DNA of 64,000 nt from the NCBI GenBank assembly GCA_038025085.1, contig CM076151.1, positions 8,499,001 through 8,563,000 of the forward strand, read 5' to 3'. The stretch is from Tetragonia tetragonoides (lineage: Eukaryota; Streptophyta; Magnoliopsida; Caryophyllales; Aizoaceae). Every line of letters starts with the position of its first letter. The stretch's first letter is position 1. Below, one piece after another: positions 2,788-57,837 of the stretch. A program made the position numbers and the translations under genes. The notes beneath the pieces were generated by a model. The model did not search any database and was not told where the DNA came from. It saw only the letters and a list, made by a program, of their open reading frames with translations.

Positions 2788-3681
2788 ATGGGAACTTTTC
2801 TGGGGCATTTTGTGCCTGGGATAGCCTTGTCCCTTCTTGGTCTTTGGCACATTATCAACACCATCAGTTCTTACCTGAAAGACCCTACCAAATTTGCTTC
2901 AAGATTTTGGTACCCTTTCAACAGTCGTCTCCTGAAACCCAAGGAGCTAGAGCTCATCCTCATCCTGAGTTTCTCTGTCCTAGCAACCGTACTCCAAGTT
3001 CTCGACTTTCCCTTCCTCCGTGTCACCTTCATTCTCATCAACTTCGAGCATGCAACCATGTTCCTCCACCTTGCGATATTTGCAGGTTTCGCCCTGTTTG
3101 CAGAGTTAGCTCAGATATCTAAGTATGTATCTAGTCTTGTTGGAATAATGGCTGCATCAGTTTTCGGTCAGGAGCTTTTCCTGCTCCACTTTCACTCGGC
3201 TGATCATGTTGGTCTTGAAGGCCAATACCATGGGCTTCTGCAGCTGATCGTGTCAATCTCTTTCCTTGCAGCTATAGCCACCACTGTCTTCCCTTCCAGT
3301 TTTGCAGCAGCACTTGTTCTTTCCATTTCTGTTGTCTTTCAAGGTTGTTGGTTTGTCAACATGGGATTCATGCTGTGGGCTCCTAAGTTTGTTGCAGAAG
3401 GTTGCTCTCTGCAGCTTGACGAAGCTAGCAGTGGTGGGATGATGCATGGAGCTGTCTCTTGCGGGTCTCCTGAAGCTGATTTCAGAGCGAGAGCACTGGC
3501 TAATTTGCAGTTCAGTTGGATACTTGCTGGAATTTTGATGTTTACTGGATTTTCTTGCCTGATCCTCGCCAGGAAAGGGACTCCAAGAGTCCAGAGATCG
3601 ACAGCTTATGAGCAGCTTCAGAGTAGGACATCTGATTTGCCGGTAGCTATTGAATGCATCAAGCAGCTTCCTGATCTGTGA
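2788..3681 (+). CDS. DUF716 / TMEM45-like membrane protein
   Basis: Single-exon gene of 297 codons. The N-terminus MGTFLGHFVPGIALSLLGLWH is the signature start of the plant DUF716 (TMEM45) family, and the length is usual for it. About seven hydrophobic segments are visible, with acidic, His and aromatic residues in the middle (LHFHSADHVGLEGQYHGLLQL, around residues 130-150) that are typical of the family. The biochemical role of plant members is not settled; relatives have been linked to pathogen response. The ATG follows a TATA box and is the first in frame. A broken second copy lies at 17.1 kb. Confidence 0.92.
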   Translation: MGTFLGHFVPGIALSLLGLWHIINTISSYLKDPTKFASRFWYPFNSRLLKPKELELILILSFSVLATVLQVLDFPFLRVTFILINFEHATMFLHLAIFAGFALFAELAQISKYVSSLVGIMAASVFGQELFLLHFHSADHVGLEGQYHGLLQLIVSISFLAAIATTVFPSSFAAALVLSISVVFQGCWFVNMGFMLWAPKFVAEGCSLQLDEASSGGMMHGAVSCGSPEADFRARALANLQFSWILAGILMFTGFSCLILARKGTPRVQRSTAYEQLQSRTSDLPVAIECIKQLPDL

Positions 3682-4814: not shown

Positions 4815-6642
4815 TTATGCAACCGTTTGGTTTGGCTTGGACTGATTTTCAAGGTCACCCATCCCCTCAATCAATGATATATAGGTGCTGTCATCTGGAG
4901 TAATTCCTTTACTGACCATTTCCTTTAGGAGCTCTTCTGCAAGGGCACCTTCCTTGTTTTTGCACAACCCTTGAATTAAGGCATTGTAGGTAAGAAGAGT
5001 TGGATTAAACCCAATATTGAACATTTCGTCTCGAATCTTGAAGGCATCTTTCATATCACCTCTCTTACTATATCCACTGATAAGAGTGTTGTAACTAATA
5101 TGATCAGGTGAAATACCTCTTTCCTTCATCTCACCAAGAACTTTACGAGCTTCTTCAACCTTACCCTCCCTGCAAAGGCCCTGCATCAACGTATTGTACG
5201 TGATTTCATCAGGGCATAGTTTTCTTCTATCCATCTCCCTCAAGATTGAGAAACCACGCTCAACATTCCCATTGGCACAATAACCATTAATCAGGGCATC
5301 GAACATCACAAGGTCCGGAGTTACACCCTTTTTCTCTGCCTTCTCAAATAGACCAGCTGCCTCATTCATTCTCTTTGATTTGCTCAAGACATGGATAAGA
5401 GACGTGTAAGTAACCCTTGTAGGCTGAATTCCATTGACTGACATCTCATCAAGAAGCTCAAAAGCCTTATTTGCATTTCCACTTTGACAGTACCCATTTA
5501 TCAGAATGTTATATGTAATATGATCAAGCTTCAAACCCTTCTCTCCCATCTCCCTTATCAAGCTATCGGCCATAGCTTCCTTACCCTCCATAAACAGCGC
5601 ATGTACCAGCATATTATACGTCGACAAAGTTGGTTCCAAGCCCTTCTTAACCATCTCATCCCTACAACTAAACGCCTTCTCTAAATCCCCCTTATTGCAA
5701 TACCCATCAATCAAGGCATTGTAAGTCACAGCAGTAGGTACCAATCCAGTTTCCACCATTTTATCAAAAAAACCCACAGCTTCGTCAAACCTCCCCTCTT
5801 TACTTAACCCACTTATGATCGAACCATATGTGTATGAATCAGGATAAATCCCCTTAACCTTCATGTCACTCATCATCCTTTTCGCGCTCTCAAATTTACT
5901 TTTAGAGCAATACCCATGAATTATGGTATTATATGTCACAACATTAGGCTTAAACCCTTCAGCCTCCATAAACCCTACAAACTCCATTGCACTCTTAAAC
6001 TTCCCTTCCTTACACAGCACATTAATCATGATATTAAAAGTATGAGAATTTGAACTAATCCTTAATTTAAACATCTCAGCATACAAAACCCAAGCCAACT
6101 CAGTAGAATTTAATTTAAGAAACAAACTCAACATATCATTACAAGTTTCAACCTTTGGCAATATACCCATATTTTTCATCATCTTAACACTTATAAGCCT
6201 CTTCAGCTTTCTTCAATTGACACAAACCCCTAATCAAATAATCAAATGAAATGCTACTTTCAACACCCAATTTCTCACGGGCTTGACCCAATTTGCCAAA
6301 AATCTCAGAACTAGTTCCTACCTCATTGCTAATTATCCTTTTAGCAAGCTGTAAAGCAGGTTTTGGTGATGTGATACGCGAAACTATAACAAGGGCAAGA
6401 CAATTAGAGTCACAATCAAGACGCTTAAGCTCAATTTGGTCACAAAATTTGGACACAAGATCAGGTTTTGTTTGGAGATTAATAAGGGTTTTAGAAATTA
6501 ATGCAGGTGAGAGAGTGTCTGCTACCTGTTTGATGAAATGCCACTGCGAATTCAAGATTGAAGCTTGCAACTCTTGTTGGGTAACTGCAGTTGTGGAGAG
6601 AGATGAGAATTTGTAGTGTTGTAGGAACTTGTGAAGCTTCAT
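4815..6642 (-). CDS. P-class PPR protein (At2g15630-like), one frameshift
   Basis: Translation of the minus strand gives an organelle-type leader (MKLHKFLQHYKFSSLST..) and then about eleven tandem 35-residue P-type pentatricopeptide repeats (…VTYNTLIDGYCNKGDLEKAF… pattern) ending in TPDDSTYISLIEGMG. I recognise strong similarity to Arabidopsis At2g15630, annotated as mitochondrial. Such proteins bind one base per repeat in organelle transcripts. The reading frame breaks at about 6183: ...EEAYKC ends in TAA and the match resumes one frame over at MMKNMG. A net loss of two bases (probably TT in TGTTTTAAG) would explain it. Everything else is open, so this is either a very young pseudogene or a consensus error. 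Single exon, about 607 residues in all. Confidence 0.88.
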
Positions 6643-6748: not shown

Positions 6749-6921
6749 GGACCTGAAGGTAGAACTATGGGTTTGGTCTCTTCTTTGCTCGGAAACCTGA
6801 TTAAGGTTGTGGCAAAAGACGGTAATTAGGATTTATAACTATAAGGGTTCTATATTTCTATCCCACATCGGACATATCATAGTAATCAAATATGTTTAAA
6901 TATGAGCTTGTTGTGATCGTA

Positions 6922-7025
6922 GGATACCCACCTTGTGGGTAATTATTAAAATGGAAATTTAAGTTTTATCTTACAAAATTTATCATTTTGCCATCTATTA
7001 AGAATGGACTAGTCTTTTTTTTTTT
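6922..7025 (+). ncRNA. Putative Pol III-type small RNA, copy A
   Basis: Promoter elements: ATCCCACATCG at 6860-6870 matches the plant snRNA USE (RTCCCACATCG) at 11 of 11, then exactly 24 bp, then TTTAAATA at 6895-6902. In dicots this three-turn spacing marks Pol III (U6/U3 type) rather than Pol II snRNA genes. Twenty-seven bases from the TATA start the conserved GGATACCCAC begins. The predicted RNA opens with a perfect 7-bp hairpin (TACCCAC-CTT-GTGGGTA, 6925-6941) and closes with CCATCTATTAAGAATGG, then CTAGTC and T11. I do not recognise the RNA as any known snRNA, snoRNA, 7SL, MRP or telomerase RNA. Confidence 0.55.
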
Positions 7026-7076
7026 CACGGAACGACCGAGCACATCTTTTACACGGTCAGGCACGACACGAGCACG

Positions 7077-7820
7077 TTGCCATCTATTAAGGATGGACTA
7101 GTCTTTTTTTTTCACTGAACGACTGAGCACGACTTTTACCCACCTTGTGGGTAGCTATTAAAATGGAAATTTAAGTTCTATCTTACAAAATTTATCATCT
7201 TGCCATCTATTAAGAATGGACTAGTCTTTTTTTTTTCACGGAACGACCGAGCACGTCTTTTACACGGTCAGGCACGACACGAGCACGTTGCCATCTATTA
7301 AGGATGGACTAGTCTCTTTTTTTCACGGAACGACTGAGCACGACTTTTACACGGTCGACGACACGAGCACGGGCACGACCTGTGCCTACCTTTTGGAAAA
7401 TAAGGCACGACACGGCACGACACGACACGGCGCAGCACGACACGAGCACGTTGCCATCTATTAAGGATGGACTAGTCTTTTTTTTCACTGAACGACTGAG
7501 CACGACTTTTACCCACCTTGTGGGTAGCTATTAAAATGGAAATTTAAGTTCTATCTTACAAAATTTATCATCTTGCCATCTATTAAGAATGGACTAGTCT
7601 TTTTTTTTTTCACGGAACGACCGAGCACGTCTTTTACACGGTTAGGCACGACACGAGCACGTTGCCATCTATTAAGGATGGACTAGTCTTTTTTTTTTCA
7701 CGGAACGACTGAGCACGACTTTTACACGGTCGAGCACGACACGAGCACGGGCACGACCTGTGCCTACCTTTTGGAAAATAAGGCACGGCACGGCACGACA
7801 CGACACGGCGCAGCACGAAG
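7077..7820. repeat. 373-bp tandem duplication with promoterless RNA-gene pieces and GCACGACACG repeats
   Basis: The segment starting gttgccatctattaaggatgg at 7077 recurs at 7450 (period about 373). Each copy carries the 3' hairpin and T run, then a promoterless piece beginning acccaccttgtgggtagc (7138, 7510), then a second 3' hairpin and a stretch of CACGAGCACGACACG-like simple repeats. The latter resemble the low-complexity ends of non-autonomous plant DNA transposons. Arginine- or serine/cysteine-rich open frames here are products of the repeat and are not genes. Confidence 0.75.
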
Positions 7821-8240
7821 CACGACAACTATAAGCACGGCACGACACGACACGACACGAAGCACGAAGGCATGACACGAGCACGACCCGAGCATGGCAC
7901 GAAGCCATCTTTAGTTATAATGTGTCAGGGTCATTTTTGGGTCAGATACGGCTTAAGAAAGGCTTGAACCTGATCCATAATCTTCGGGTTCGGACCGACC
8001 CAGCAGGTCACTTGTGTGATCCAAGGGTTCATTTTGATTAAATTGTCTTGCTAATTTTGCTGGAAGATTCACTTGTGTAATCCAAGGAGAGAAATTTTTT
8101 TCACTGAAGTGTACCTACCTATTGTTTAAATAGAGACATAGTTAATTATTTACTAATATTTTCTCATGAGAAGGATTAATCCCACATCAGATAATCCATA
8201 CTAAACTAATATGTTTAAATATGACCTTGTTGTGGTTGTA

Positions 8241-8354
8241 GGATACCCACTTACTACAAATGGGTAGCTATTTAAAACTTTGTTGAAATCTGCTGATGAC
8301 TTTATTGTTAGAGAAATTATTATCTTGCCATCTATCAAGGATGGACTAGTTTTT
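8241..8354 (+). ncRNA. Putative Pol III-type small RNA, copy B
   Basis: USE-like ATCCCACATCA at 8179-8189 (10 of 11), 24 bp, TTTAAATA at 8214-8221, and conserved GGATACCCAC 27 bases from the TATA start. The 5' hairpin is ACCCACTT-ACTAC-AAATGGGT with one mismatch. The middle contains TGCTGATGA. The 3' hairpin CCATC-TATCAAG-GATGG is followed by ACTAG and T5. Its promoter is intact, so this copy could be active. Confidence 0.55.
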
Positions 8355-8665
8355 CATTTTCGGGTCGGGTACGGGTTGAAAAAGGCATGAACCTGATCCA
8401 GAGTTTTCGGGTTCGAACCGACCCAGGTCACTTGTGTAATCCAAGGTGTCATTTTGATTAAATTGTCTTGCTAATTTTGCTGGAAGATTCACTTGTGTAA
8501 TCCAAGGGGAGAAAATTTTTTCACTAAAATGTACCTACCTATTGCTTAAATAGAGACACGGTACAGTCAACCCTTCACTAATCTTTTCTCATAAGAAGGA
8601 TTAATCCCACATCAGATAATCCATACTAAACTAATATGTTTAAATATAACCTTGTTGTGGTTGTA

Positions 8666-8786
8666 GGATACCCACTTACTATAAGTGGGTAGTTATTTAA
8701 AACTTTGTTGAAATTCGCTGATGACTTCATTCTTAGAGAAATTATCATCTTGCCATCTATTAAGGATGGACTAGTTTTTTTTTTTT
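8666..8786 (+). ncRNA. Putative Pol III-type small RNA, copy C
   Basis: USE-like ATCCCACATCA at 8604-8614, 24 bp, TTTAAATA at 8639-8646, and GGATACCCAC at 8666. The 5' hairpin ACCCACTT-ACTAT-AAGTGGGT pairs perfectly, and the 3' hairpin CCATC-TATTAAG-GATGG is intact. It ends in CTAG plus T12, a strong Pol III stop. This is the best-preserved copy. Confidence 0.6.
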
Positions 8787-9061
8787 CATATCAAATACGA
8801 AGCAGTTTACAAGTTCATTGATTGCAAAAAGCCTCAAATAAATAAAATTTTTGATTAAATTGTCTTGCTAATTTTGCTAGAAGATTCACTTGTATAATTC
8901 AATGGGATAAATCTTTTTCACTAAAGTGTACCTACCTATTGTTTAAATAGAGACATATTCAACCCTTCACTAATCTTTTCTCATAAGAAGGATTAATACT
9001 ATATCAGATAATTCATACTAAACTAATATATTTAAATATGATCTTGTTGATTGTGGTTGTA

Positions 9062-9175
9062 GGATACCCACTTACTACAAGTGGGTAGCTATTTAAAACT
9101 TTGTTGAAATCTACTGATGACTTTATTCTTAGAGAAAGTATCATCTTGCCATCTATTAAGGATGGACTAGTTTTT
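9062..9175 (+). ncRNA. Putative small RNA, copy D (USE degraded)
   Basis: The USE position reads TACTATATCA, four changes from the consensus, so promoter activity is doubtful. TTTAAATA is kept at 9031-9038. The conserved start is 31 rather than 27 bases from the TATA box because of a 4-base insertion (ttgattgtgg). Both hairpins are perfect (ACCCACTT-ACTAC-AAGTGGGT; CCATC-TATTAAG-GATGG), followed by CTAG and T5. Structure has outlived the promoter, which fits a recently silenced copy. Confidence 0.45.
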
Positions 9176-9363
9176 CTTTTCTTTTTTCTTTTTCACATCA
9201 AATACGAAGCAACGGGAGAAATTTTTTTCACCAAAGTGTACCTGCCTATTGTCTGAATATAGACTCAACCCTTCACTAATCTTTTCTCATAAAAAGGATT
9301 AATCCCACATCAAATAATTTATACTAAACTAATACGTCTAAATATGATCTTGTTGTGGTTGTA

Positions 9364-9478
9364 GAACACCCTCTTACTAAGAGTGGGTAGCTATTTAAAA
9401 TTTTGTTGAAATTTGTTGATGACTTATTTCTTAAAAAAATTATCATCTTGTCAATTATCAAGGATGGACTAGTTTTTT
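9364..9478 (+). ncRNA. Putative Pol III-type small RNA, copy E (diverged)
   Basis: USE-like ATCCCACATCA at 9302-9312, 24 bp, TCTAAATA at 9337-9344. The body is more diverged: GAACACCCTCTTACTAAGAGTGGGTAGC keeps much of the first stem with a bulge, while the 3' stem is damaged (CAATTATCAAGGATGG). It ends CTAG, T7, G, T9. Confidence 0.45.
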
Positions 9479-9930
9479 TGTTTTTTTTTCCATACCAAAT
9501 ACGAATCAGTTTACCAAGTTCATTGATTGCAAGAGCCTCAAATAGACGAAATTTTTTGTGACAAATACACAAGGTTTTGGTCAGTTTGTGATTTAATGCT
9601 AATATCGTCCATTGATGGGGCTCGACTTTTTCTTATTTATTCTCTGCATTCAGTTGGTCTTTCTCTGCATACAGTGATTCTTTTTTCACTTGTCATCTAC
9701 ACTACAAATGTGTTCCATTTGATTATTTATTTATTTTTTTTTATTTTTTTATTTTTTTTTACCAAATGTTGGTGTTGTAGACAAATATTAATTCATGTCA
9801 CATTAACAGCACGGAATATGGCCCAAATAGGAAAATTTAACTTCACTAGCTTTTCTAATTAAGATTATATCCCACATCGAATAATTCATACTAAAGTAAT
9901 ATGATTAAATATGAGTTCGTTATGATTATA

Positions 9931-10037
9931 AGATACCCACCTACTAAAGATGGGGAGCTTTCAATTAATTGGATTAAGCTTATGACTTTCACTTTGCAAA
10001 AGTTATTGTCTAGCCATTTGTCAAGGATGGACTAGTT
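9931..10037 (+). ncRNA. Putative Pol III-type small RNA, copy F (most diverged)
   Basis: USE ATCCCACATCG at 9869-9879 (11 of 11), 24 bp, ATTAAATA at 9904-9911, and the conserved start 27 bases from the TATA start. The 5' stem CCCACCT-ACTAA-AGATGGG holds with one mismatch. The 3' hairpin is CCATT-TGTCAAG-GATGG. The T run is short (T4 G T6). Promoter geometry is preserved although the transcript body has changed most. Confidence 0.45.
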
Positions 10038-10759
10038 TTGTTTTTTATTTTATTTTTTAATATTTAAATATGCTATTTCTTATTCTAATTACTTTATCAA
10101 AAACAAAAAAAATTCTAATTACAAGGATGGGCTACAAATATATGGCAGAACACAAAAAAACTTCTATAAGACGGTCTTTCCGTAATTATTGGTGTAATAT
10201 ATATGACTACTCTTTATTTCTCTTTTCTTTTGCTCAAAAGTTATTAGTGGCATTTCATCTTCCACTACATCAGTCATCAGGTGGGGTGTTGTCATGGCTT
10301 TAACCATCCTATTAGTCTATTATTACTCCATTATAAATCTTACCTTGAAAACACTTGGGTGGTTCTGGTTATCAATTTGATTGATTTGGCAAGAGCCTCA
10401 AGTGAATGTAGTTTTCTGATCCTAGTTCTTTTTTTCTTTTTCTTTTGACAAGATCCTAAAGTTTTCTTGTTAGTGTTTTTCCTTTTGCTGAAAGTTGCAC
10501 TTGTGTGTTTGTGCAATCCAAAGGGAGTAATCTTTTTTACTTGTGGAAAATCTAGTGAATTGCTAAATACCGCCCCTTTTTACTAGCTACCGTCCCCCCC
10601 TTTCCAATTTTACCCTCACCCACCCCTCTTCCTCACTCACTCTCACTCTTCCACTCTCACTCATCCTCTCTTCCTCACTCACTCTCACTCATCCTCTCTT
10701 CCTCACTCATCCTCACCACCACACCGGCAACCACCACCACCACCACCACCACCACGACC

Positions 10760-11398: not shown

Positions 11399-13416
11399 TA
11401 TTATTATTATTATTATTATTATTTATCGTTATTATTATTATTATTATTATTATTGATTATTGTTTAATTAATTAAAAATGTGAAATGATAGATGGGAGGA
11501 GCCGGTAAATCGGTGCCTCGGTTATTTAGTGAACTAGCTGGTTCAGGACCGCGTCACACGAGGACGCGCGGGATTGATGCCTCTGTACGGAGACAGAGAG
11601 AGGCAGTTCGGATGAGGGAGATGACTGCTGAGCAAGACGATTACGCAACTAGCGAGTTCTACTCCGGTGAGCAAGACGATGATCAGATTGGCGTCGAATT
11701 ATCCTCAGATTGGCGCGTGGTGAAGGGCAGAGGCGGTAGGTTTGTTAGTACTGGGTCGTCCAGTACTGGCAAACGATCTAGAGCGGAGGACGACACTACG
11801 TGGCTTGTTACAGAGCCTGTGCCCGGTGGGCCGGCGGATGATAGCGTCATACCGAGCTTCCTGGGCCACGTAGCGTCTCGTATGTGGAATGGAGAGATGA
11901 GGGGTCTCTTGAAGTGTCATAACCGATGGAATGTCTGTCAGCGGCTGAGTCAGTGGCGAGCGGAGATGTCGGCCGAGATGAGGGCCCAGATCGAGGGGAT
12001 TGGGTTATCACACCTGACAGACATTATGTTCAGACATATTGACTTCCCCCTGATATCTGCATTCGTGGAAAGGTGGCAGCCGGATACGAACTCGTTCCAC
12101 ATGCCGTTCGGAGAGATGACGATCATGTTGCACGATGTATGGCATATTCTTCGGATTCCTGTAGACGGAGAGCTCATTTCCAATGAGGGACGGGATGGGC
12201 AGCTGCAGACGGCGGCCATGGAGGTTCTCGGGGTCAGCCCAGAAGAAATGATGTGTAGCCACTGGCAGGGCGGTGCGGTCCTCACGGAGTCGGTTTTTGA
12301 GCTTTGCCGTGAGCAAATAGATGACATCCAGGCGACAGCTTGGATGTGGTTACTTATTGGATCCACCTTGTTTGTCGACAAGAGTGGTAACCGTATTAGA
12401 CCCTCCTGCGTGATGGAGGTGATGGACGACGGTGTCGATACGGTGCATGACTTCTCTTGGGGATCTGCTGCCCTCGCCTTCCTATATCGTCAGCTCGGTA
12501 TAGCTAGTCGCGGGGATTCTCAGGGCATCTGCGGATGCCTAACTCTCCTGCAGGCATGGATATACGAGTACTTTCCCTGCTTCCGACCTCATCGGGAGCG
12601 GATGGTTGTCGGGGACGACGAGGCTCCCCGTGCGTCCGTATGGAGTGCCCTGGCTGAGGGCAAGGACATGGGTCGACTGGACTCCTTACGTAGACGCTTG
12701 GATCATCTGCGAGCGACAGAGGTACGTCATTTAGTTATCGGTGTTCATGATTTATTTCGTCGTTTGCTATGTTTTTTTACTTCACCGTAACTTTCAACAT
12801 TTCTACGTAGGTGGTGTGGCTGCCGTACGGTTCTAACCCGGCAGTATCTGTACCGAGGACTGTATTCATGGGGTGGCTACAGTATCGGGATATTATCGAA
12901 CCGTACATGCCTGGTCGTTGTTTACGACAAATCGGGTACGTACAGAGTATCCCAACCCCGATCTTTAGGCCAGTCAAAGCGATCAGGTCATGGAGCAGTC
13001 GTTCGTACAAGGTTGTCTTCCCCGAACGGATGTCATCTGATGCTTGGCGTATGTTCCCGGGATTTTACATTCTTGGTCTCCATGGGTTTCAGGCATCCAC
13101 GTCAGATCCCACAGCATGTACGGATGACTACCTCGCATGGTACTACCTTCACTCCCACCCTCGGCTGATACGTGACGCTGCAGCACCTGTGATTCCTCCA
13201 CGATTCAACAGCGATTATGTAAGTGATTAACTAAAATATATATTTTTTTACGTATTACATATCTCTGAACTCACACTCATTGTTACTTTTTTGCAGTGGG
13301 TGAATCGTCTAGCCGTCGGATTTGAGTCTTCCATTACTTTGATTCCTCCGGAGCAAGCGGAAGGTCCTCGATCATTTATGGACGAGTTTATGAGAGATTG
13401 GCGGGCTGCCAAATGA
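10760..13416 (+). CDS. Plant mobile domain (PMD) protein encoded by the MULE
   Basis: Four exons with phase-0 GT-AG introns join into 609 codons: 10760-10831, 11492-12721, 12811-13218, 13297-13416. The first encodes a short Ser/Gly/Arg leader (MSSASGSGG..). The body shows the plant mobile domain (aminotransferase-like PMD, as in MAIN/MAIL1): LSHLTDIMFRHIDFPLISAFVERW, FHMPFGEMTIMLHDVWHILRIPVDG, …LTLLQAWIYEYFPCFRP. PMD is shared by transposons and by host silencing proteins; its activity is unknown. The gene reads inward from the left TIR, in the place mudrB has in MuDR. It seems intact, which is notable beside a frameshifted transposase. Intron 1 holds the quasi-palindrome array and a (TTA)n run. 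Confidence 0.88.
11001..11218. repeat. Left quasi-palindrome array (7 units) in PMD intron 1
   Basis: Seven copies of a 20-bp unit with perfect 9-base arms, gactcaccc/gggtgagtc, around a TT or AA centre that marks orientation. One copy is degenerate (gactcgcccaagggtagtc). Spacing is about 31-34 bp, with spacers such as gtctgccgatct and gcctgagaccgg. A poly-T run precedes and (TTA)n follows. Confidence 0.95.
11252..11462. repeat. (TTA)n microsatellite
   Basis: About 210 bp of ATT/TTA repeats with a few ATTTATTG interruptions, at the 3' part of PMD intron 1. It is mirrored by (TAA)n at 16385-16461 inside the transposase intron 1, so both are part of the element's symmetric sub-terminal structure. 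Tyr/Ile/Leu-rich open frames here are artefacts. Confidence 0.95.
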
Positions 13417-16384
13417 TGTATTGACCCTAGATGAATTTGTTATTATAAGAGTTTCATTGTTATTGTTATTATTTATTTGTGTTATTGTAATTTGTTGTTT
13501 CTTATTTACATTTTTTGTTTTATTGTAATTTGTTGTTTTATTTACCTCCAATAATCACGACCACTCTCCACATGCAAAATATAACAATCACACAAAAATG
13601 TGACAATGATATAAGTATAACAATCACGCAAAACATTCAATTACATCGACCTCGCTAAACGATCCCAATGTGCTCTTCGCGTAACATACATTTGCTCCCA
13701 ACCAGCGACACTATCAGAACGGAAAGTAAACCATGCTTCGCATATCGGAGGAACAGGGAAATCTGAGGCTAAATCCAGACGGATATAATGGGAATACGAA
13801 TCACCTAAATGACACATGACAATTTCCCTACTTGGACGTGTAGCAGTCGAAGGTGCTTGGAACGGTAGCACTGTGTAACAAGAATATAACCCCCTTCCGC
13901 TGCCGTATCCGAATAACATAATCGCTGCATTGAAGAGGTTGGCAATCGGGAACAAATCCTCAATTACTGTCATCCAGTGATCATCGTTACACGCACCTCC
14001 GTCCCACATAATACGGCGGTAACCAGCGTCGACCCCTTCAACGTATAAGTTTTCGTACAATGCTCGGTTAGCTAAGAGTTCGTGTGCAATGCAAACTCTC
14101 GCCACTCGCCATTGCTCTTGGTCTCCGAAAATGTAGTCCGCAATGACACGGAAACCGCAATTACCATCCCCAAGCACATCGAGATATCCTTCAATGAAAG
14201 GTACGATGATTCCCGGAATTTTGTTAACATGATAGAATTCAGTGATATCTATTGCGTGTCCAGCTGCAAGACAATATAATAGAAAGTCAATAATAATACT
14301 TATCAAAAAGTAACAACATTATGTACATGTTAATAAATTATGGGTTTTCATACCAGTACTGTTTACGAAGTTACTCGATGAGGATGAGGTACGACCACGC
14401 CCGCGGCTCGAACTGGATGACCTAGGGCGACCACGACCCCTCTGGGAGTACTCCCATGAACTAGGATCACGTCTGGTAGAGGAACTCCCTCTCGGTCGAC
14501 CTCTGACTGTCGTGTTCGCTTCCGGCTCGACGTAACTCGCTTCCTCAGGATGAAGCTGCTCATTCATAAGGACAGATATGTTGCGCACAACTGTCGGGTC
14601 GCTTGAGTTAACCTCGTCGACCAGAGACCGAAAGTATCGATGGTCCTCAGATGGATGCTCAGTCATGTCAAGCGTAGCTATCTCCACTGCATCACTAATA
14701 ACGAGTGTTCGCCAAAATTTGTGGACACTATTCAAGCTAATTGGCGTGCCCGTATCCGTGGCCGTTTTCAACTCACACGCACACGGGATCTGATGAGTGG
14801 ATCTCAATACACAACCGCAACGATCAAATACTTGGTGACTCAATTCTCTCATCCTGTTTAGCTCAGCCAATAATATTTGTAAGCAGTAATGGGAAACATA
14901 CCCGGTCAGATAGTTGAATGGGAAACCCGAGTACACCACACTTCTTCGTCTTCTGCACTCTTCAAGTGTGTACTTGATCTCAGTTATTTGTGACTCGATT
15001 GACTTGTTGACCTTGTTCCAAACATTGTCCAAAGCTCCAGTTGAGGAGTTCAACCACTGTTTTAGCGCGGCATGTGCACTCTCCACCCTGCAAGTCGTAG
15101 TGTTGCCAAGGTGTAGCACCTTATTCGTCCACGCAGCCACAAACATCTCTTTGTGTCTCAGCCAGGTCTCCTCTACATAGGATATCACGTGAGAGTAAGT
15201 CCTCCAACTAACCTTCATCGTACGCACTGCTCTATCGTACGCAGCTTCTGTGGAAGCTTCCATGATAATTTTCCACCTCCCATTCTTGAACCTCTGCGCG
15301 ACGGCCTTATCTTTTCCACAAAGTCTGTACACTTTGTCTTCAACGACTTTGTTAATGTGCCATGTACAGAGCAAATGGGCACTCTCGGGAAATATCTCTC
15401 TAATAGGTGTCATCAACCCTAGCTCACGATCGGTCACAATTGCTGTTGGGTGTACATCATTTCCAATAAGCATCCTCAACTTATCTAAGACCCACGCATA
15501 GCTTGCCTGAGTCTCATCCTTCATAATGGCATAAGCTATGAGGAAGTTCTTATTGGTTGGAGTCATCCCCACTATCTCAAGAAACGGCATCTTATACTTG
15601 TTTGTTTTGTACGTGGAATCTAAGCCAATCAACCAACGAAAAGACCGAAGTAACTGAATTGATGTAGGGTGTGCCATGAACACGTGAGTTACCTCATTAG
15701 TAGCTCGGTCGGCTCTTGTCCAATGTACGTACTTATTCGCCACAGCTAAATTATGAAACTGACCAATGACATCTCTCTCTCTTCAAAATCAAGTTTCCTT
15801 ATACGATCTCTGTGGTTGTACACATGCCGTCTAGTTGCATTGTCCTCGGGAAATTTTTCCTTAATCGCGGCCAAGATAGCACATGGCTTTGTTTGTGCCG
15901 AAGTCATGTCACGAACGAGTTTCTTTGACCCAGGACTAAGACCACTCATCTGACGATATCCCTCAGGATACACAGCAAAGTCATGGTTGTGCGTACCCCT
16001 AGTCCCAGGCAATGTGACAATCATCCAACTACTGGACCCATACACTTGCCGAGCTCTCAACTGGAACGTACATTTACAAGCCTTTGTTTTCGATTTCTTC
16101 CGAGCAGCAGTATCTAAGTCTCTTAATTCCCCTCTGTAGCGTTCACCTCGATTGCATTTTAACAATTTTACGCTTCCACTCTTCTTGTGTGACGAAATTA
16201 TCAACTCAAACCCGATAGTAAGTGCAATTTGTTTTGCCCAATTAATTGCATCTGTATCACTATCAAATAACTCATCAGTGACGAAATGCGTACTGTAATC
16301 AACACCATCACCATCGAACCGCTCCAAAGGAATCTAACGAAAACAACGAAAACAATGTTAGCTTAATCTTAAATTCAAACAATA

Positions 16385-26271: not shown

Positions 26272-29128
26272 TTAGTGATGAAGTAATCTCCTTGCAGCAT
26301 GAACTTTCAGCACGTGATTTTTAGCATCAGTCAGCTCAAAAGCACAGACATCCCCTACCTTTAAATTGTTATCCCGCGCAAAAACAAGCCATCCGCTACC
26401 TAATCTGCAAACAGCTGTTTTAACACATCGCACTAGCCATTGCCTCCCATCAGACGCCTCAACTTTGAAAAATTCCCCAGCCTCACACCTGATAAACTTT
26501 CGAGCAAAATCAGCAGGAACGTTCTGCATAATTTGTAGTGATAATAACTAATAAGTGCTAGGTCTTGAGAAGTTTAAGCCAATAATCAATTATTACTAAT
26601 AGTTTAGTGACTCAAGTCACTAAGAATCATAAAAACGCTCATACATTGCAAGCTAATATAGACGAGGAATAGACTAACCACAAAGTTTCCACCCTGCAAA
26701 TTATAATTCTTGATGGTCATGATCCAAAAAGGATTTGCAGGCCTGGAGATACCAGCTGAAGCCAGAGCTTTAATTAGTTCCTCATGCTGGTACCAGACTT
26801 GGTCCTCTGCAACTGAACCAAGTTAAGCAATCAAAAGCCGTTTTAAGAGCACCTTTCTAGACCAAATAAAAACCAGTTACTCGAAGATAAATAACCTACC
26901 AGATGGAGTCCCTTGCTTACCACCATTTGTTTCAGTACTAGACTTGCTCCCTTCAAATTGATTTAGCTCCTCCTCGTCGTCGCTTGCCAGTGAGCTACTA
27001 GAGAATCCACCACTAATAACATCTTGACAATCATCATCCATTTTTTCTTCATGCCCATGCAAAGAAGACTCGTCTTCACTATCTATCTGTATTACTTCTA
27101 CTGGTAAAACATTTGATGCATCGAGGACTCCAGTACTTTTTAGCGGGAACCTTACTGAGTTGTTGCGATTGTTGTACGAAGCTCCTCCATCTCGGTCATC
27201 ACAATGAAATTCCTTTTGTTCTTGAGGTATAATGTGAGCATTACATGGGTAAGGAATCTCACAAGTTTTTTGATCGAAGATATGAACTTCAAATTTTGAA
27301 TTCCCTTCAAAGGTGAACAGCAGAAAATAAGCAAAGCCTATGGAGAAGTAGTCCACAAATTCTTGCCATCCTTCTTTGAAGAATAGCTGACTGTCCTCTT
27401 TAACTAGTGCCACTTTCCAGGATTCACCTGTAGGAACAGTAAGGATGGCAGAAGTAGAAAGTTCGCCACCAAATGTAGTTGCAAATGCCTCTGGTATCCT
27501 CTGTTAAACACAAAATAAAGAGAAAAAAAAAAGAAAAAAGAAAAGAAGAGCTAATGTTCCATTTGCCAATAGGTTTATGAGATTAAGTAAAATGGGGGAA
27601 GAAACGGATGGCCAATATTTTTACTCTCCAAATTGACCTTGACAGTTAACATTCAGCAAGATAATCTAATTTTTTCCATTCAATTAGTACGAGATGCTAT
27701 TCCTTGCAATACAATTTAAGAGCCTAGAGTACTGAATGTATACTTGGCATGATCTAAGCTAGGCTTATCTGCTTTTTCTTGAAGTTTAACTTGGGGGGAT
27801 TAACAGTCACATTTGCCACTCTTGGGCCAGCAATTATAGTTGTATAGCCAGACGCTGCCAAACCCATATAAAGTCCTTGTCACCACAACCTCAAGATTTA
27901 TGTTGGGTTATGGTTGTAATCAAGGGCTAGGAAACCAGGTGATCTCGTGGTTTGGACATGGAGGATTTGATCAGAAAAGACTCCAATGGCACCATGCTAG
28001 GCTTTCAGTAAATGGGCTTGCTTGGAGCTGAGACGAGCAGAGAAGCCATGAAAGACAGTTCTTTAAACATGAAGCAAAACATTAGTATTTCTTTCTCCGT
28101 CTTGGTTTACATTGAAACTGACACTGCCTAAAGTGGACCTGTACCACTCATCAATGTCACAAAATGTAGAGGGCTTAAGGTCATATTGGATTCTAACAAT
28201 GAAAGTTTCCTTCCCCAGTTTATCAGCATTCCCTCCTCCCCCCACTGCAGAGAAAGCCAGAAAGGCGACGAGGGACAAAGAAGATGAACAAAAGGGTACC
28301 GGGGAAAGTCATGGTTTAACTTTGAAATCGAGAGAAGAAGAAGTAAAAAACGAAACATGAATGTACATGGACTGTATCAGAATGGTGGTACACATAGATG
28401 TGTAGTATCAAAAGCAACAATGGTGGAGGCAAAAAGGTTCAAACTTTTAGGGAGGCAAAAGTTGAATGATAAGCTGGTTCAGTGTTTGGGACTTTTCAAG
28501 GGTGGGAGATGGATGAGCAAATCAGCCAAAATAAGAGTAAAAGTTGCCTATTTTGACAATGTATCTTTAATCTTTCACAAAATCAAACATCAACTCCCTA
28601 GATTCATTGCAAAGGAGACTTTGCACTAAATATCCCAAATTCTTTGACAAAAGATAAATCTTTGACAACAGAAACATATCACACTGGATGTTTCACGTAT
28701 CAATGTCTAATAAATGCCCAATTTTGCTTCCCAAACAAAATAAAATTCACTTAGATACTGTATGTTATCACTTTCTGATTCACAGCAAACAGTCTATTTG
28801 TCTAGGGCTCTTCAGTTCAAGTCATCAAGTTATACATATCACATTATTTAAAAAACTAATAACAAGAACAAAAAAAGGAGGGAATAGAACTGCAATTGTT
28901 ACTAAAAGCAAAAACCATGATCAATTATTCATTTACAGACCAAAAAAATCAATAAAAGATCAAATGCAAAATGAAAAGGGCAAGGAAAAGATGAAAAGTT
29001 ACCAGCTTTTTGGATTGTAAGGTTGGAGAGAGCATTAACTTGAAGAAGCAACACGGTGGGTTTCTCTCTCCAGAAGTAGAGAGAGAGTGGTTGTCATGGT
29101 TTCTCCTCTTTGGTCTCTCTCTGTTCAT
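26272..29128 (-). CDS. REM/B3 DNA-binding protein (gene 3), subtilase relic in intron 1
   Basis: Exons 29128-29003, 27500-26900, 26812-26679 and 26523-26272 close into 370 codons. The first B3 domain spans exons 1-2 (CCFFKLMLSPTLQSKKL | RIPEAFATTFGG…SWKVALVKEDSQLFFKEGWQEFVDYFSIGFAYFLLFTFEG). An acidic, Ser-rich linker follows, and a second B3 domain is in exons 3-4 (ANPFWIMTIKNYNLQGGNFV | NVPADFARKF…GWLVFARDNNLKVGDVCAFEL). It is the sister of the gene at 35954-41345, with the same exon layout and intron phases. The long intron 1 contains a collapsed subtilase on the same strand, plus simple AT-rich DNA. Confidence 0.85.
27775..28312 (-). pseudogene. Collapsed subtilase copy inside REM gene 3 intron
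   Basis: From the ATG at 28312, the minus strand gives a signal-like start, then TFIVRIQYDLKPSTFCDIDEWYRSTL, the I9-propeptide region of the subtilase at 38-40 kb. It continues to about 27890 and then jumps to sequence matching the extreme 3' end of that gene (aagtttaacttggggggattaacagtcacatttgcc in the plus orientation, at about 27783). The catalytic domain is absent: an internal deletion removed roughly 1.7 kb. It shows that the nested arrangement predates the duplication of this block. Confidence 0.88.
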
Positions 29129-35953: not shown

Positions 35954-38900
35954 TTATGACTTCTTTGCAATATGAACTTTTAGCACTTGATTCTGTGCAT
36001 CAGTGAGCTCAAAAGCACAGACATCCCCTACCCTCAAATCATTATCCCGTGCAAAAGCAACCCACCCTCCACATAATCTGCAAGATCTACCCTGATCTGC
36101 AACTGGTCGAATACATCGTACTAGCCATTGCCTTCCATCAGACACCTCAAGTGTCACATATTCCCCAGTCTCGCACCGGATACACTGTTGAGTAAAATCA
36201 GCGGGAAGAAACTGCGTGAATCAGAGCGCCACTAGGTAAGTGTTTGGTCTTGAGAGACATAAGTCATAAGTCATGCGTTTGATGCATTCTCACTTAAGCC
36301 AATAATCAATTATTTCCAAATAGATTAGTGACTCAAGTCACGCAGAACTATAACAACGCCCATATATTGAAAGCTAATACAAAAAATGGACTAACCACAT
36401 AATTTCCTTTCTGCACATTATGCTTCTTGATGGCCAAGGCAAAAAAAGGATTTTCAGGCCTAGAGATTCCAGCTGAAGCCAGAGTCTTCACCAGTTCCTC
36501 ATCTATGTACGAGGCTTGTTCTTGTGCAACTGGAAAAATTAGGTGACCGAAACACAATTAAGAGAACCTTAGACCAAGGAAAAAAAGTTACTCAAAATTA
36601 GAGAGCCTACCAGATGGATTCTCTTGCTTATCACCACTTGTCTCAGTACTATACTTGCTCCCTTCATAACGGTTAAGCTCCTTCTCGTTGCTTGCCTGTG
36701 AGCCGCTTGAGAATCCACCACTCACAATATCATTACCATGGTCATCCATTAGTTCTTGATGCCCATGCAAAAAAGACTCATCTTCACTAGCTATTTGTAC
36801 TACTTCTACACGTACACCATTTGATGCATCCAAGGCTCCAGTACGAGCATTGCCATCTAGGACCCGCTTTCTTAGCGAGAACCTTACTGAATTGTCGTGA
36901 TTGTTGTAGGGAGCTCCTGCCCCTGGATCCGCATAATGGGATTTCTTTTGTTCTTGAGGACTATTGGGAGCATTACATGGATAAGTTATCTCACAAGCTG
37001 TTAGATTGAATATACGAACTTCAAACTTTGAATTCCCTTCATAGATGAACACCAGAAAATATGCATAACCTATTGAAAAATAGTCCACAAATTCTTGCCA
37101 TCCTTCTTGGAACCATAGCTGATTGTCCTCTTTGACTATTGCCACTTTCCAGGACTCACCTGTAGGAACAGTCAGGGTAGCAGAAGTAGAAAATTCGCCA
37201 CCAAATGTGCTTGTAAAACTCTCTGGGATCCTCTATCAAAACACACACAAAAAAATTAGATAAAGCTTTTAAAACACAAAATAAATAAAGGAAAAAAGAT
37301 AAGCTAATGTCCCATTCAGCTTAGGACAATAAATACAATGGGGGGATAAGGCAAATAGTTTTAGTTGAAGCATGCCTATTTACCCTCTCCATGTTGAATC
37401 TTAACAGTTAACATACAACAACATCATCTAAGTTGATTAGTACAATTTGCAAACAAAAGATCATTTTAATTTGCAAGGCTGCATAAACAAACAAAAGATC
37501 AATGTAAATCACCAAATGGCGCAATTCTTTGGGGAAAGTTGTTTGCAAATTGCAATGGTCGGGGAGTTATGGGTGTCCACTGACTGTGCTGGAGTTTTAG
37601 CAGGTTCAGTTTGTGGGCTTTACAAGGCAAAAGGAGAAGAGGAATTGGGGCGGAATGCGCTTCTGGCGATTTTATGGGTTTTATGGCTTGAAAGGAATGC
37701 AAGGGATTTTTCCCGATTAAAGCTATCACCGGAGTGTCTTTGAGATCAAGTTACTTTTTCAGCATCTTTGTGGGCGAAGGCAGTAGGGGCATTTAGGAGT
37801 TACTCGCTTTTGGAGGTCCAAGCAATTGCGCTCATTTGTAAAAGAACCCTATAAAGAGGACAACTTGTCCTCTTATGCTTGTATTATTTTACATAATTAT
37901 TAATAAATACTTTTTCTTATCTAAAAAATCACCAAATTGAATATGAATATTGCAAGTGCAGAATCATTCACTATCTTGCACAAATACTTTGCAAAACTAC
38001 ACAAGAGACTATTCCTTACAATACAATGTAAGAGCAAAGAGTACTAAATGTAGATTTGCATGGTCCAAGCTAGACTTCTGCTTTTGCCTAAATTATTTTA
38101 AGTTTTAATGACAATCAAAGGTACAGTCACATTGTGCTGGCCATCAGTCCAAGTGAGCGAACCCGCCTCATCATCACTTGAGGAATTTCCAAATACCGAT
38201 ACATTAACTGTGAAGCTCTGCTTCTCTGCTTTCTTCTTAAAATTTAACTTGGGGGGATTAACAGTCACATTAGCCCCTCTTGGGCTAGCCACTACAGATG
38301 AATAGGCAGATGGTGTCGAACCCACACTGGTCAAAGTCCTTTTCACCACAACGCCGGCCTTATTAGAGTGTCTAATTTCTGTGGAAGACACGATAATAGC
38401 CGGATAATTCAGGTCCCACGGCTTAACAGTGCTCTTTTTGCAGCTGGCATCCCTCCTAGTTATATTCCTTACTTCAAACTCATAGAAATTCGAGGCGCAA
38501 AGATAATCAACATAATCATTCACCTGAATGTCAAAGGCCAAACCCGGATCATTAGCTTTTTCAGGATTTACATGGCCCGCGCCTGTATCCCAGACAGAAG
38601 CTTTGGCATAGGATATTTCGTCTACCAAAGGCTTACCATCAGAGTAATGATTATAAGAAGTGGTCATTAATGCTGATCGAATCACGGCTGGGGACCACTC
38701 AGGATGGGCCCCCTTGATAAGAGCAGCAATACCTGACACGTGTGGGCAAGACATGGAGGTACCAGATAAGATATTAAACCCTGACCTCCTAAGGTCCTCA
38801 GGTAATTTAGTTAGCGGGATATCATCAGGCCAGGCGGCTAGGATGCCAACCCCTGGTGCAATGATGTCAGGCTTAAGCAAGTAACACTGATTTGACATAA

Positions 38901-41345
38901 AACTTGGACCCCGAGAGGAAAACCCTGCCACAGCTGGGGCGGGGCCACTGCCAATCTTAGTCCCACGAAACACAATGGTAGCCTTTGGGTCCTTAGTAGA
39001 GTGTATGTAGCTGAAGAGAGTGTCATTGGCAGACTTGGAAATGGCTAGTCCAGGGATTATATGAGCATCGCTAGTTAAACTCTCCCCATATTCTCCATTA
39101 TTGGCAATTACAACACCAACTCCTCCAGCCTTTTTCACATTAAAACCCTCCACGAGCCGGTTATTGTTAGCCTCCCGACTACGAGCACAGATTACAATTT
39201 TTCCCTTGACAAGGTTAGGGTCTAATAAATTTCCTGAACATTTTGAATCCCCAACATCCTCTCCATATACTATAGGGTAAATTTTCTCCCTCAATGGCTC
39301 GCCAGTATATATAGAAGTTCCTGTCAAAATGACCCCATTTCCTAGTATAAGGTCTGCAACGAAGGTCCGGTCAATTGTACTTGCCCCAACAGTGGTGAGC
39401 CATGGGGCTGCATTTAACACAGTATCTCAGAAAGGGCCATAGTTACCTGCCGCAGCTGAGACAAAGATCCCTCGTTCAACAGCACCAAATGACGCTATTG
39501 CGACCGGATCACTCATGTACCACTGTTTAGACCCACCAACTGAGAGCGAGAGAATGTCAACACCATCCTGGACCGCCTTGTCAACTCCGGCCAGTATGTC
39601 CGAAATTGCACACCCAATCATCCAGCATACCTTGTAAATGGCCAATCTTGCCTTGGGAGCAATCCCAATGGCTTCCCCTTTAGCATAGCCGAAGAAAGAG
39701 GCGTTTCGAGCTCTCCCTGCAGCCGTTGAGGCTGTGTGGGTCCCGTGCCCAATGTGGTCCCTAGCTGACTGTTTTTTTTTATCCTGAGTAGTGTTCATCA
39801 TTGCTGCTATCCCATCGGGGAAGTATCTAGCCCCAACTAGTTTCCTGTTGCATAGGGAGGCTGGGAAGCCTTCCCCTCCATCACACTTCCCCTTAAAGTG
39901 GGTTGGGACAGGACCAAGTCCCTCATCATTGAAGCTTGGGCTCTCGGGCCAAATCCCAGTATCAAGGACACCAATCACAACGTTGGAGCCTAAGTCAGAT
40001 TCCTTCAATAGGCCAGTTGGGTTATGGTACGAATTAAGACCTAAAAAACCAGGTGATCTTGTGGTTTGGACATGGACGATTTCATCAGGAAATAATCCAA
40101 TGACACCACGTTGGGCGTTCAGTAACTGGGCTTGCTCGGAGGTGAGACGAGCAGAGAAGCCATGAAAGACAGTTGTATAGACATGAAGGACATCACTAGT
40201 ACTTCTTTCTCCCTCTTGGTTTGCACTGAAACTGACACTGCTAAGAGTGGACCTGTACCACTCATCAATGTCGAAAAATGCAGAGGGCTTAAGTTCATTT
40301 TGGATTCTAACTATGAAAGTTTGTCTCCCCTGATTATCAGGATTTCCCCTAGCTGGAGAGAACAGCGATGAGGCAACGAAGAGGATCATAAAAAGGGCAC
40401 AAAGGAAAGTCATGTTTTAACTTTGAAATTGAGAGAGGAACAAAGAGAATAAATGAATGTAAATGGATCGTATGGTGGTGTATATATGTGTAGCCTGGAG
40501 AGAAACAATGGGGAATTCAGAAAGGTTCTAACTTTTAGAGGGGCAAGATTAGGAGATGAATGAACTAACCCCTGTTATCTTTGATCTTTGTTTTCAAACT
40601 CAAAGAGCAACTCCCCAGAAACTTACTTCAAAGGTAAGTGCATTGCAAAAAATGAAACTTTCAACTATATATCGCAAATTCCCTGAAGGGGAAAGAGTTT
40701 TCCGGCAAAATTCATGCACTGTCTTGGACCATAAATCCTTGACAAAAGAAACATATCCATATCCTTGACAAAAGAAACATATCCATATCCTTGACAAAAG
40801 AAACATATCCATATCCTTGACAGTGGGATGTTTCAAGTATCCATGTCTAATAAATGGCCAATTTCACTTCCTAGACAAAATAAATTTTGCATAAAGAAGG
40901 CGAAATTTATAAATCACTACACTGTAAGTGATCAATCAGATACTCATACTCAACAACAACAACAAAAAAAACAAAAAATAAACAAAAGGGCATCACTTTT
41001 TGAGTCACATCAAGCAATTTGTACACTCAGTATTCATTGTCTAGGGCTCTTCAGTTCAATAACACATCACATCATTTAAACAAATTAAGAAAACAGAAAT
41101 TTATAGAAATGCAATCTCTACAAAAAAGCATAACCCATGATCATTTTGGGACCAAAAAAACCAAAAAAAAAAAATCAAATCAAATTAAAGATACAAATGC
41201 AAAAATAAAGGGCAGAAGAAAAAATATGAAAAGTTACCAGCTTTTTGGACTTTAAGGTTGGAAGGAGCATCATTTTGAAGAATTTCCACCGGGAGTTAGA
41301 GAGAGAGTGGTTGTCACCCCCAATTCCATGGCTTGTGTTCTTCAT
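35954..41345 (-). CDS. REM/B3 DNA-binding protein (gene 4) with a subtilase nested in intron 1
   Basis: Exons 41345-41238, 37232-36611, 36529-36396 and 36211-35954 close into 373 codons. First B3 domain: NSRWKFFKMMLLPTLKSKKL | RIPESFTSTFGGEF…SWKVAIVKEDNQLWFQEGWQEFVDYFSIGYAYFLVFIYEG. Acidic linker. Second B3 domain: ENPFFALAIKKHNVQKGNYV | FLPADFTQQCIRCETGEYVTLEV…GGWVAFARDNDLRVGDVCAFEL. Sister of gene 3. Intron 1 is 4.0 kb and contains, on the same strand, a full-length subtilase and, on the other strand, a truncated LINE. Splicing across it is inferred from the conserved exon split of the first B3 domain in all intact cluster members. An upstream in-frame extension of the start is open, so the true ATG is uncertain. 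Confidence 0.82.
37518..37925 (+). mobile_element. 5'-truncated LINE with 12-bp target duplication
   Basis: Reads …LLAILWVLWLERNARDFSRLKLSPECL* and, after it, …WAKAVGAFRSYSLLEV.., the C-terminal tail of plant LINE ORF2, with a TATTATTTTAC..AATAAATA 3' end. It is bounded by perfect direct repeats aaatcaccaaat (37506-37517 and 37926-37937). It sits in intron 1 of REM gene 4 and is absent from the matching intron of gene 3, so it is younger than the duplication or was lost there. Confidence 0.85.
38098..40413 (-). pseudogene. Subtilisin-like serine protease (S8), full length with one in-frame stop
   Basis: Single exon, about 770 codons. Signal-like start MTFLCALFMILFVASSLF, I9 propeptide (TFIVRIQNELKPSAF…VIGLFPDE), then the S8 catalytic domain with Asp in VIGVLDTGIWPES (about residue 151), His in GHGTHTASTAAG (about 226) and Ser in LSGTSMSCPHVSGIAALIKG, a PA insert and a C-terminal fibronectin-III-like domain. 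Plant subtilases are secreted and process extracellular proteins. A TGA at 39424-39426 interrupts the same frame just after AAGNYGPF, before DTVLNAAPWLTTVGAS. It is a base substitution and not an indel. No other lesion is seen, so the gene died recently or the base is wrong. It lies in the REM gene 4 intron, same strand. Confidence 0.88.
40736..40822. repeat. 26-bp tandem repeat, 3.3 copies
   Basis: Unit tccttgacaaaagaaacata followed by tccata, repeated at 40736, 40762 and 40788 with a partial fourth. It lies upstream of the subtilase start, within the REM intron. Confidence 0.93.
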
Positions 41346-50460: not shown

Positions 50461-50730
50461 GGCGCTGGGACATGGGATATGGGCCACCTAGATTTTAATT
50501 AAAATTTTGATGTAATTAGTTCATTTCGATCCGTTGTCTACTACGATAATCTTTGGTAGAAGAACTTTATAACAAAATATTCTCAAGTTTGTTAATAAAA
50601 GGTTAATAATCGTTTCCTAGAAGTCGGTCAAATATAAATCTAAATTTACAGTATAACTTATCATAAGTTTACAAGGCCGACCAAGGCAATTCATTGAGCA
50701 TCGAGCCAACCTCACTTCGATCTATCATCT

Positions 50731-57050: not shown

Positions 57051-57062
57051 AAAAGTTCAGGA

Positions 57063-57148
57063 GCCCCTTCGGGGACATCTGATAAAATTGAAACGATACA
57101 GAGAAGACTAGCATGGCCCCTGCGCAAGAATGACACGCACAAATCGAG
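57063..57148 (+). pseudogene. Retroposed U6 snRNA copy
   Basis: The sequence gccccttcggggacatctgataaaattg…cgatacagagaaga-tagcatggcccctgcgcaa…tgacacgcacaaatcgaga matches plant U6 snRNA with a few substitutions. It lacks the 3' end and has no USE or properly placed TATA box. It is bounded by perfect 12-bp direct repeats aaaagttcagga (57051-57062 and 57149-57160), the mark of LINE-type retroposition. It is therefore a dead copy and not a U6 gene. Confidence 0.9.
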
Positions 57149-57837
57149 AAAAGTTCAGGAATGAGGGATGACAAGCAATCCCCCCTAGACATATAATACG
57201 AGAGACACATTTCACTAAGGGAAGGTTTTTCTTTTTTAACCCACAATCATTACTCTTAGAATGTGTTGGTAAATCTGGAATACATGTAATAGCAATGTAG
57301 CATGTAAAAGACATACAAGTTAACAAGATAAACTTACAGAAATGTTTAACAAACAAAACTTTTGTGGGAAGTATACTTGCACTCATGACTTTTTAGCATG
57401 AAATTCAACCCCGCAACCAACTATAACTATGCTATATTTCTATTTATGACATTTGCCATGAAATCCAACCTCACTAAATTAAGTTAGTTACCAATACGTT
57501 ATTGAGTAGAAGTGTGGGCATTGGGACCGAGTTCGTTTGGATCATGAACCGGTCTTGACTAAAATCCACTCCTATTCCAAAAACCAACCTAGTTGGATCT
57601 GGCTTTAGTTTTGGGTTTCATATTTCACTGGTTCGTCCTATGGGTGCACGATAAGCTTGGATATATCTGACCCGATAACTCAACCTGAAGTTACTGAGAG
57701 AAACTCACACCCGACCCAAACATGACCTATTTTAAAAGTTTGGTATAAAAGTGATCTCCTATCAGTTTTACCCATGCTTCGAAATTGAGGTGAAATTCAC
57801 TTTGACTCCCATCCCATTAACCCAAATACAAAAACTT

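Follow-up and report, generated by a model that had tools for sequence, protein, structure and literature searches.

A tandem array of putative, partly decayed RNA polymerase III type-3 small-RNA genes in Tetragonia tetragonoides

The 64,000-nucleotide stretch of the Tetragonia tetragonoides genome analysed here (contig CM076151.1, positions 8,499,001 to 8,563,000; hereafter the 64-kb window) contains, on its forward strand between positions 6860 and 10046, six related units that are arranged head to tail. Each of these units, A to F, is composed of an upstream sequence element (USE), a TATA-like box, a body and a terminal T run. Judged from these elements, the array is probably a local multigene family of RNA polymerase III (Pol III) type-3 small-RNA genes, that is, genes with a USE and TATA promoter, in a plant of the Caryophyllales, and is likely to have spread by tandem duplication of DNA. 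The best reading is that of a family which is partly decayed; an RNA gene family is a plausible assignment, and its product matches none of the known families tested. To our knowledge, the plant RNAs known to be made from Pol III promoters of the USE/TATA type are few in number. AtR8, which was found via a promoter of this kind, turned out to be the telomerase RNA (PMC6765143; for this and all other papers cited by PMC number, the statements refer to the parts of the paper drawn on here). Another such family in tandem, with its promoters intact, would offer either a candidate for a plant RNA not yet described or a clear case of such genes multiplying and dying.

An initial annotation of this DNA had proposed six units with a USE-like box, a TATA-like box and a T run, and all of these elements are found in A to F. 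The consensus of the USE is RTCCCACATCG (PMC9845283). It is matched at all 11 positions in two copies, as had been claimed, these being A (6860) and F (9869), and at 10 of 11 in B, C and E, whereas D retains 7 of 11; A, B, C, E and F thus match the consensus and D does not. The distance from the end of the USE to the start of the TATA-like box is exactly 24 bp in the five units for which it had been reported, and D shows the same spacing. Between the start of the TATA-like box and that of the start motif there are 27 bases in A, B, C, E and F, as described, and 31 in D, but the motif itself is less uniform than had been thought, with the exact string GGATACCCAC present in A, B, C and D and replaced by GAACACCCTC in E and by AGATACCCAC in F. 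At the other end, a run of 4-12 T begins at CTAGT or one base later in all six units. From the start to CTAG the body measures 109 bases in B to E, 105 bases in F and 91 bases in A, which is thus shorter than the RNA of about 105-120 nucleotides described in the initial annotation.

Plant TATA boxes are placed at -28 to -30, and USE and TATA stand closer together in Pol III genes than in Pol II genes, by one turn of the helix (PMC9845283), this distance being one determinant of the choice of polymerase (PMC9845283, PMC11961915). With TATA at -28 to -30 the start is therefore placed at the G or A of GGATA. The gap of 24 bp is also what we take to be the USE-TATA figure for U6 itself. The host lineage can be read from a TMEM45-like open reading frame (ORF) at 2788-3681, for which the matches listed (best 120 of 364) show an identity of 76% with Chenopodium quinoa and of 74% with Opuntia, followed among those with a name by Amaranthus, Gypsophila and Saponaria. 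All five genera are Caryophyllales, and since the host is a dicot of this order, dicot promoter rules should apply. The dicot Pol III type-3 geometry that had been suggested for the units is well supported by their sequence.

This arrangement is not expected by chance. A search of both strands of the 64-kb window finds only five USE-like sites with at most one mismatch; all of them lie within the array, and each is followed by a TATA-like box at a distance of exactly 24 bp. Shuffled sequences contain on average 0.96 such sites, with a maximum of 4, and for an exact USE the shuffles give an expectation of 0.01 per 64 kb. The combination of a USE (at most one mismatch), 22-26 bp and a TATA-like box, observed five times, is expected 0.01 times per 64 kb (100 dinucleotide shuffles). 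The units are paralogues, however, and the shared geometry is therefore close to one event rather than five independent ones.

The sequence itself shows the order and spacing of the elements, the T runs, the structure of the copies and the duplication of B to E as DNA; from it we infer transcription, the polymerase, the ends of the RNA and any ribonucleoprotein (RNP). In the proposed mechanism SNAPc would bind the USE, and TFIIIB with TBP would assemble on TTTAAATA, 24 bp downstream of the USE. Pol III would then start at a purine in GGATA, 27-30 bases past the start of the TATA-like box, and stop in the T run that directly follows the 3' hairpin. The product would be an RNA of about 90-115 nucleotides in which an AU-rich middle joins a 5' hairpin to a 3' hairpin bearing a U tail, the latter possibly bound by La-type proteins. 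Units C, B and F look best able to be transcribed, and A possibly so. Unit C is the most intact copy of the six and F is a divergent one. The promoter of D, with its broken USE, is probably dead, and E is probably decaying, as its TATA-like box and hairpins are altered. More speculatively, and on balance rather improbably, the array beside its neighbouring PPR gene could encode an undescribed, lineage-specific plant small nuclear RNA (snRNA) of Pol III type 3 that fulfils a host function through an RNP built on the 5' hairpin, the AU-rich linker and the 3' hairpin with its U tail.

The claim that the RNA matches no familiar class held when the covariance models of Rfam 15 were run, as no match in the array reaches the gathering score. 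At E<=10 there are five matches in 6800-10100, the best of which, to snoZ155 on the opposite strand, has an E of 5.6, and all are far below gathering. Individual candidates were likewise rejected on the six bodies. A telomerase RNA would carry the template CTAAACCCT, which is absent from all six, as is CCCTAA, and U6 is dismissed by the absence of ACAGAGA. No Sm motif is found in any body. A small nucleolar RNA would have C and D boxes close to its ends or an ACA three bases from its end, and is rejected because neither RTGATGA nor a terminal ACA is present in any of the six; a TGATGA core in B to E lies mid-body, not near the ends, and in B, C and D it overlaps a single CTGA. A tRNA-type short interspersed nuclear element (SINE) is rejected by the absence of A-box and B-box consensuses of the tRNA/7SL type from all six bodies, and ARAGORN detects no tRNA in the 64-kb window. 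A full-text literature search with sequence words of the unit returned only unrelated titles, none with AAGGATGGACTAG, among the matches listed, and among the papers listed on plant Pol III type-3 RNAs none fits this kind by its title or the start of its abstract. Public contigs of prokaryotes and viruses, scanned for exact patterns, gave no match; these are non-plant collections and say nothing about plants.

The units nevertheless resemble several described systems. Like dicot U6 and U3 genes they combine the USE RTCCCACATCG with a TATA-like box that is nearer to it, by one turn of the helix, than that of Pol II snRNA genes, a start about 28-30 bases past TATA and a T-run terminator (PMC9845283, PMC4448504), but no Rfam family, U6 and U3 included, matches their RNA body, and soybean U6 has the TATA sequence GTTTATA where the units have a TTTAAATA core (PMC4448504, PMC9845283). 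The plant telomerase RNA AtTR, earlier AtR8, is also a Pol III product with a USE, a TATA box and a terminator, but at about 260 nucleotides and with a CTAAACCCT template it differs from units of about 90-115 nucleotides that contain neither CTAAACCCT nor CCCTAA (PMC6765143). Animal orphan snRNA-like transcripts of Pol III type 3 are small RNAs that were similarly recognised by their snRNA-type promoter (PMC3472747, PMC3509611); they use proximal sequence element (PSE) promoters, and the human units are intronic and spread over the genome, in contrast to the tandem array described here (PMC3509611). An Arabidopsis screen that selected Telo-box/Site II promoters, not USE/TATA promoters, has, in the part drawn on, no bearing on the unit (PMC4660826).

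Units B, C, D and E share about 100 bp upstream of the USE (Table 1) and, because this flank is common to them, are tandem DNA duplicates. It has no clear counterpart upstream of the other two units: the best match of the B flank upstream of F covers 21 bases (E 0.095) and that upstream of A 8 bases. Downstream of F, at 10483-10541, there is a divergent piece of the B to E upstream flank (73% over 59 bases, E 1.2e-6), which is perhaps the remains of another unit. A and F are the most divergent pair, with 109 of 172 columns identical within the unit and 58/161 and 44/170 in the flanks, where the alignment is forced, so that the figures of 26-36% for A represent background and not homology. The similarity between A and F extends from the USE to the T run and no further, dipping to 20% in mid-body, and both units have all 11 USE positions and agree at 16 of the 24 spacer bases.

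A profile built from the six units finds twelve matches at E<=1.6e-5, all between 6860 and 10040, namely the six full units and, beyond what the initial annotation had described, two near-full copies without a promoter and four 3' fragments. Further matches have E values of at least 3.1, the best outside the array being 4.5, and this search therefore gives no credible copy of the unit elsewhere in the 64-kb window. BLAST of the units returns one match outside the array, where a 29-base stretch from unit E aligns with 50496-50524 (83%, E 0.009), which we take for chance. The two promoterless copies sit inside longer DNA repeats (repeat family D6), and the four fragments travel with local duplications that bear GC-rich GCACGACACG-type repeats. 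Across 7019-7900, imperfect repeats of this GC-rich GCACGACACG type are interspersed with the 3'-hairpin fragments of the array.

Table 1. Coordinates of the units, unit-derived copies and shared flanks of the array (positions in the 64-kb window)
Feature	Position	Strand	USE (match)	TATA-like box	Start	5' hairpin	3' hairpin	T run	Remarks
Unit A	6860-7025	+	6860-6870 (11/11)	6895-6902	~6922	6925-6941	6987-7012	7015-7025	two TTTT within body
Unit B	8179-8354	+	8179-8189 (10/11)	8214-8221	~8241		8324-8349	8350-8354	body without TTTT
Unit C	8604-8786	+	8604-8614 (10/11)	8639-8646	~8666	10 bp	8749-8774	8775-8786	body without TTTT
Unit D	8996-9175	+	8996-9006 (7/11), degraded	9031-9038	~9062	retained	retained	9171-9175	4-bp insertion ahead of start
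Unit E	9302-9479	+	9302-9312 (10/11)	9337-9344, TCTAAATA	~9364	mismatches	mismatches	9473-9479	TTTT within body
Unit F	9869-10046	+	9869-9879 (11/11)	9904-9911, ATTAAATA	~9931		10010-10035, CTAG/CTAG base paired	10036-10039, 10041-10046	body without TTTT
Promoterless near-full A-type body	7137-7228	+							nhmmer E 3.3e-18; no USE (<=1 mismatch) ahead
Second promoterless near-full A-type body	7510-7601	+							nhmmer E 3.3e-18
3'-hairpin-plus-T-run fragments (four)	7074-7105, 7285-7315, 7448-7479, 7659-7690	+							
Co-duplicated flanks ahead of USE	B 8083-8178, C 8503-8603, D 8900-8995, E 9210-9301	+							

The initial annotation held that the 5' and 3' hairpins persist while the remaining sequence drifts, which is a weak claim and applies at most to the 3' hairpin. 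Three lineages were compared (A, F and B to E, the latter collapsed to their majority sequence), with gap columns scored as changes. The 3' hairpin has 6 of 26 columns changed against 34 of 55 in the middle (Fisher p=0.0017, one among six post-hoc tests), but the 5' hairpin, with 13 of 28 changed, is not more conserved than the middle (p=0.24). None of the other comparisons in these lineages is significant, whether of the USE or the TATA-like box with the spacer (p=0.12 and p=0.38) or of the spacer or the TATA-to-start segment with the middle (p=0.054 and p=0.32). Over seven distinct rows 88.5% of the cells in the 5' hairpin and 87.1% in the 3' hairpin are paired, and sliding the partners against each other lowers the pairing to 29-54%. 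A, C and D have a continuous 5' stem, of 7, 10 and 9 bp respectively, whereas that of B, E and F contains mismatches; a stem of the observed length in the first 32 bases is reached by 5 per 1000 shuffles for C and 12 per 1000 for D. The mean folding z is -1.34 for the sense strand of the units, -2.00 for the antisense strand, -0.20 for the upstream flank and -0.12 for the background.

Several of these measurements weigh against a working family of RNA genes. The overall pairing of 87.8% compares with 86.9% after the 3' letters are shuffled, and the stem test that singles out C and D is unremarkable for A, B, E and F (146, 537, 347 and 880 shuffles per 1000). When covariation was checked, as had been suggested, the score was equal to that of shuffles (0.075 against 0.074), and only the seventh pair from ACCC has changed on both sides, being U-A in B to E and C-G in F, a count that 367 of 500 shuffles reach. 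By z the antisense strand folds better in five of the six units and the sense strand in A only. TTTT is absent from the bodies of B, C, D and F and present in A and E, but 12-38% of shuffles of the four bodies lack it too, as do 260 of 677 110-mers of similar GC from the window, and its absence was therefore discarded as evidence. Nor does the unit change more slowly than its surroundings: pooled over the six B to E pairs, 75 of 660 cells are substituted in the body and 69 of 564 in the flank, variable columns number 34 of 172 in the unit and 21 of 92 in the flank, and the pairs C-E and D-E even show more rapid change in the body than in the flank, though not significantly. Only in B-C, one of the six pairs, is the unit slower than the flank (p=0.04 uncorrected), and the comparison of flank and body in B-D gives p=0.055. 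The indels among B to E comprise 27 gap cells in the flank, 12 ahead of the start and none in the body. The basis for choosing between a working and a decaying RNA gene family is thin.

The near-equal change of unit and flank in B to E is what would be seen if only the ancestor had been a Pol III type-3 RNA gene and all present copies were pseudogenes that drift while tandem duplication carries them along. The lost USE of D, the altered TATA-like box and hairpins of E, the internal TTTT and shortened body of A, and the reduction of two copies to promoterless bodies and four to fragments all speak for such a relic. We nevertheless consider it unlikely, given that A and F hold the full 11/11 USE and the 24-bp spacing despite divergence to 63% and that C retains every expected element. 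A piece of a transposable element, for example of a long terminal repeat (LTR) or a non-autonomous element, that brought its own USE-like and TATA-like boxes and was duplicated in tandem here appears more doubtful still. Many plant LTRs likewise have TCCCACATYG-like motifs close to their starts, and the region is rich in repeats, with MULE transposase and plant-mobile-domain ORFs downstream; yet the remainder of the window holds no credible profile copy (best E outside the array 4.5), and no ORF of 120 or more amino acids lies between 6643 and 10976. In addition, no exact direct repeat of at least 7 bases was found near the edges of A to E, and F has one of 9 bases away from its edges, which is a weak test as the script examines only the neighbourhood of given edges and missed the repeat around the U6 copy described below.

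A SINE-like retroposon with an external Pol III promoter, which had been offered as the alternative, would likewise be a short repeated unit with a Pol III-type promoter and a T run, and the bodies at 7137 and 7510 do lack a promoter, though within longer DNA repeats. It is disfavoured, and very unlikely, because the external promoter region accompanies every full unit whereas an RNA intermediate would drop it: each of the six full copies is homologous as far as the USE, about 60 bp ahead of the start, none of the six bodies has an internal A or B box match, and B to E lie head to tail with a common flank. The outcome of retroposition can be seen in the same window in an Rfam U6 match at 57063-57165, which lacks a USE in the 213 bases ahead of it (best 7/11) and is flanked on each side by AAAAGTTCAGGA, a direct repeat of 12 bp (57051-57062 and 57149-57160). 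The segment 57051-57165 is a probable U6 snRNA retropseudogene; if the AAAAGTTCAGGA repeat is a target-site duplication, the U6 body would end at 57148, short of the end of the Rfam match. With the exception of the two promoterless copies, the array units are the opposite case. That the array is an ordinary tandem satellite whose boxes arose by chance and mean nothing for transcription is equally improbable. The copies are related, so their geometry counts about once, and the finding was selected out of the whole window, but USE, 24-bp gap, TATA-like box, start distance and T run coincide, and the similarity between A and F is bounded by the USE and the T run.

To the left of the array, and divergent from it, lies a PPR-type gene at 4815-6642 (-), maybe split in two adjacent ORFs, of which that at 4815-6182 (-) has a Pfam PPR match and that at 6184-6642 has no Pfam match. 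On the other side a plant mobile domain ORF (11492-12790, +) and a MULE transposase ORF (14319-15743, -) are perhaps parts of a Mutator-like element. Further along, several ORFs within 23975-47345 (-) resemble one another on inspection by eye and may form a tandem series of B3/REM-type genes; two of them were scanned, with a Pfam B3 match for 43308-43841 and none for 26877-27413. A subtilase gene at 38098-40413 (-) comprises two adjacent ORFs, each with a Peptidase_S8 match.

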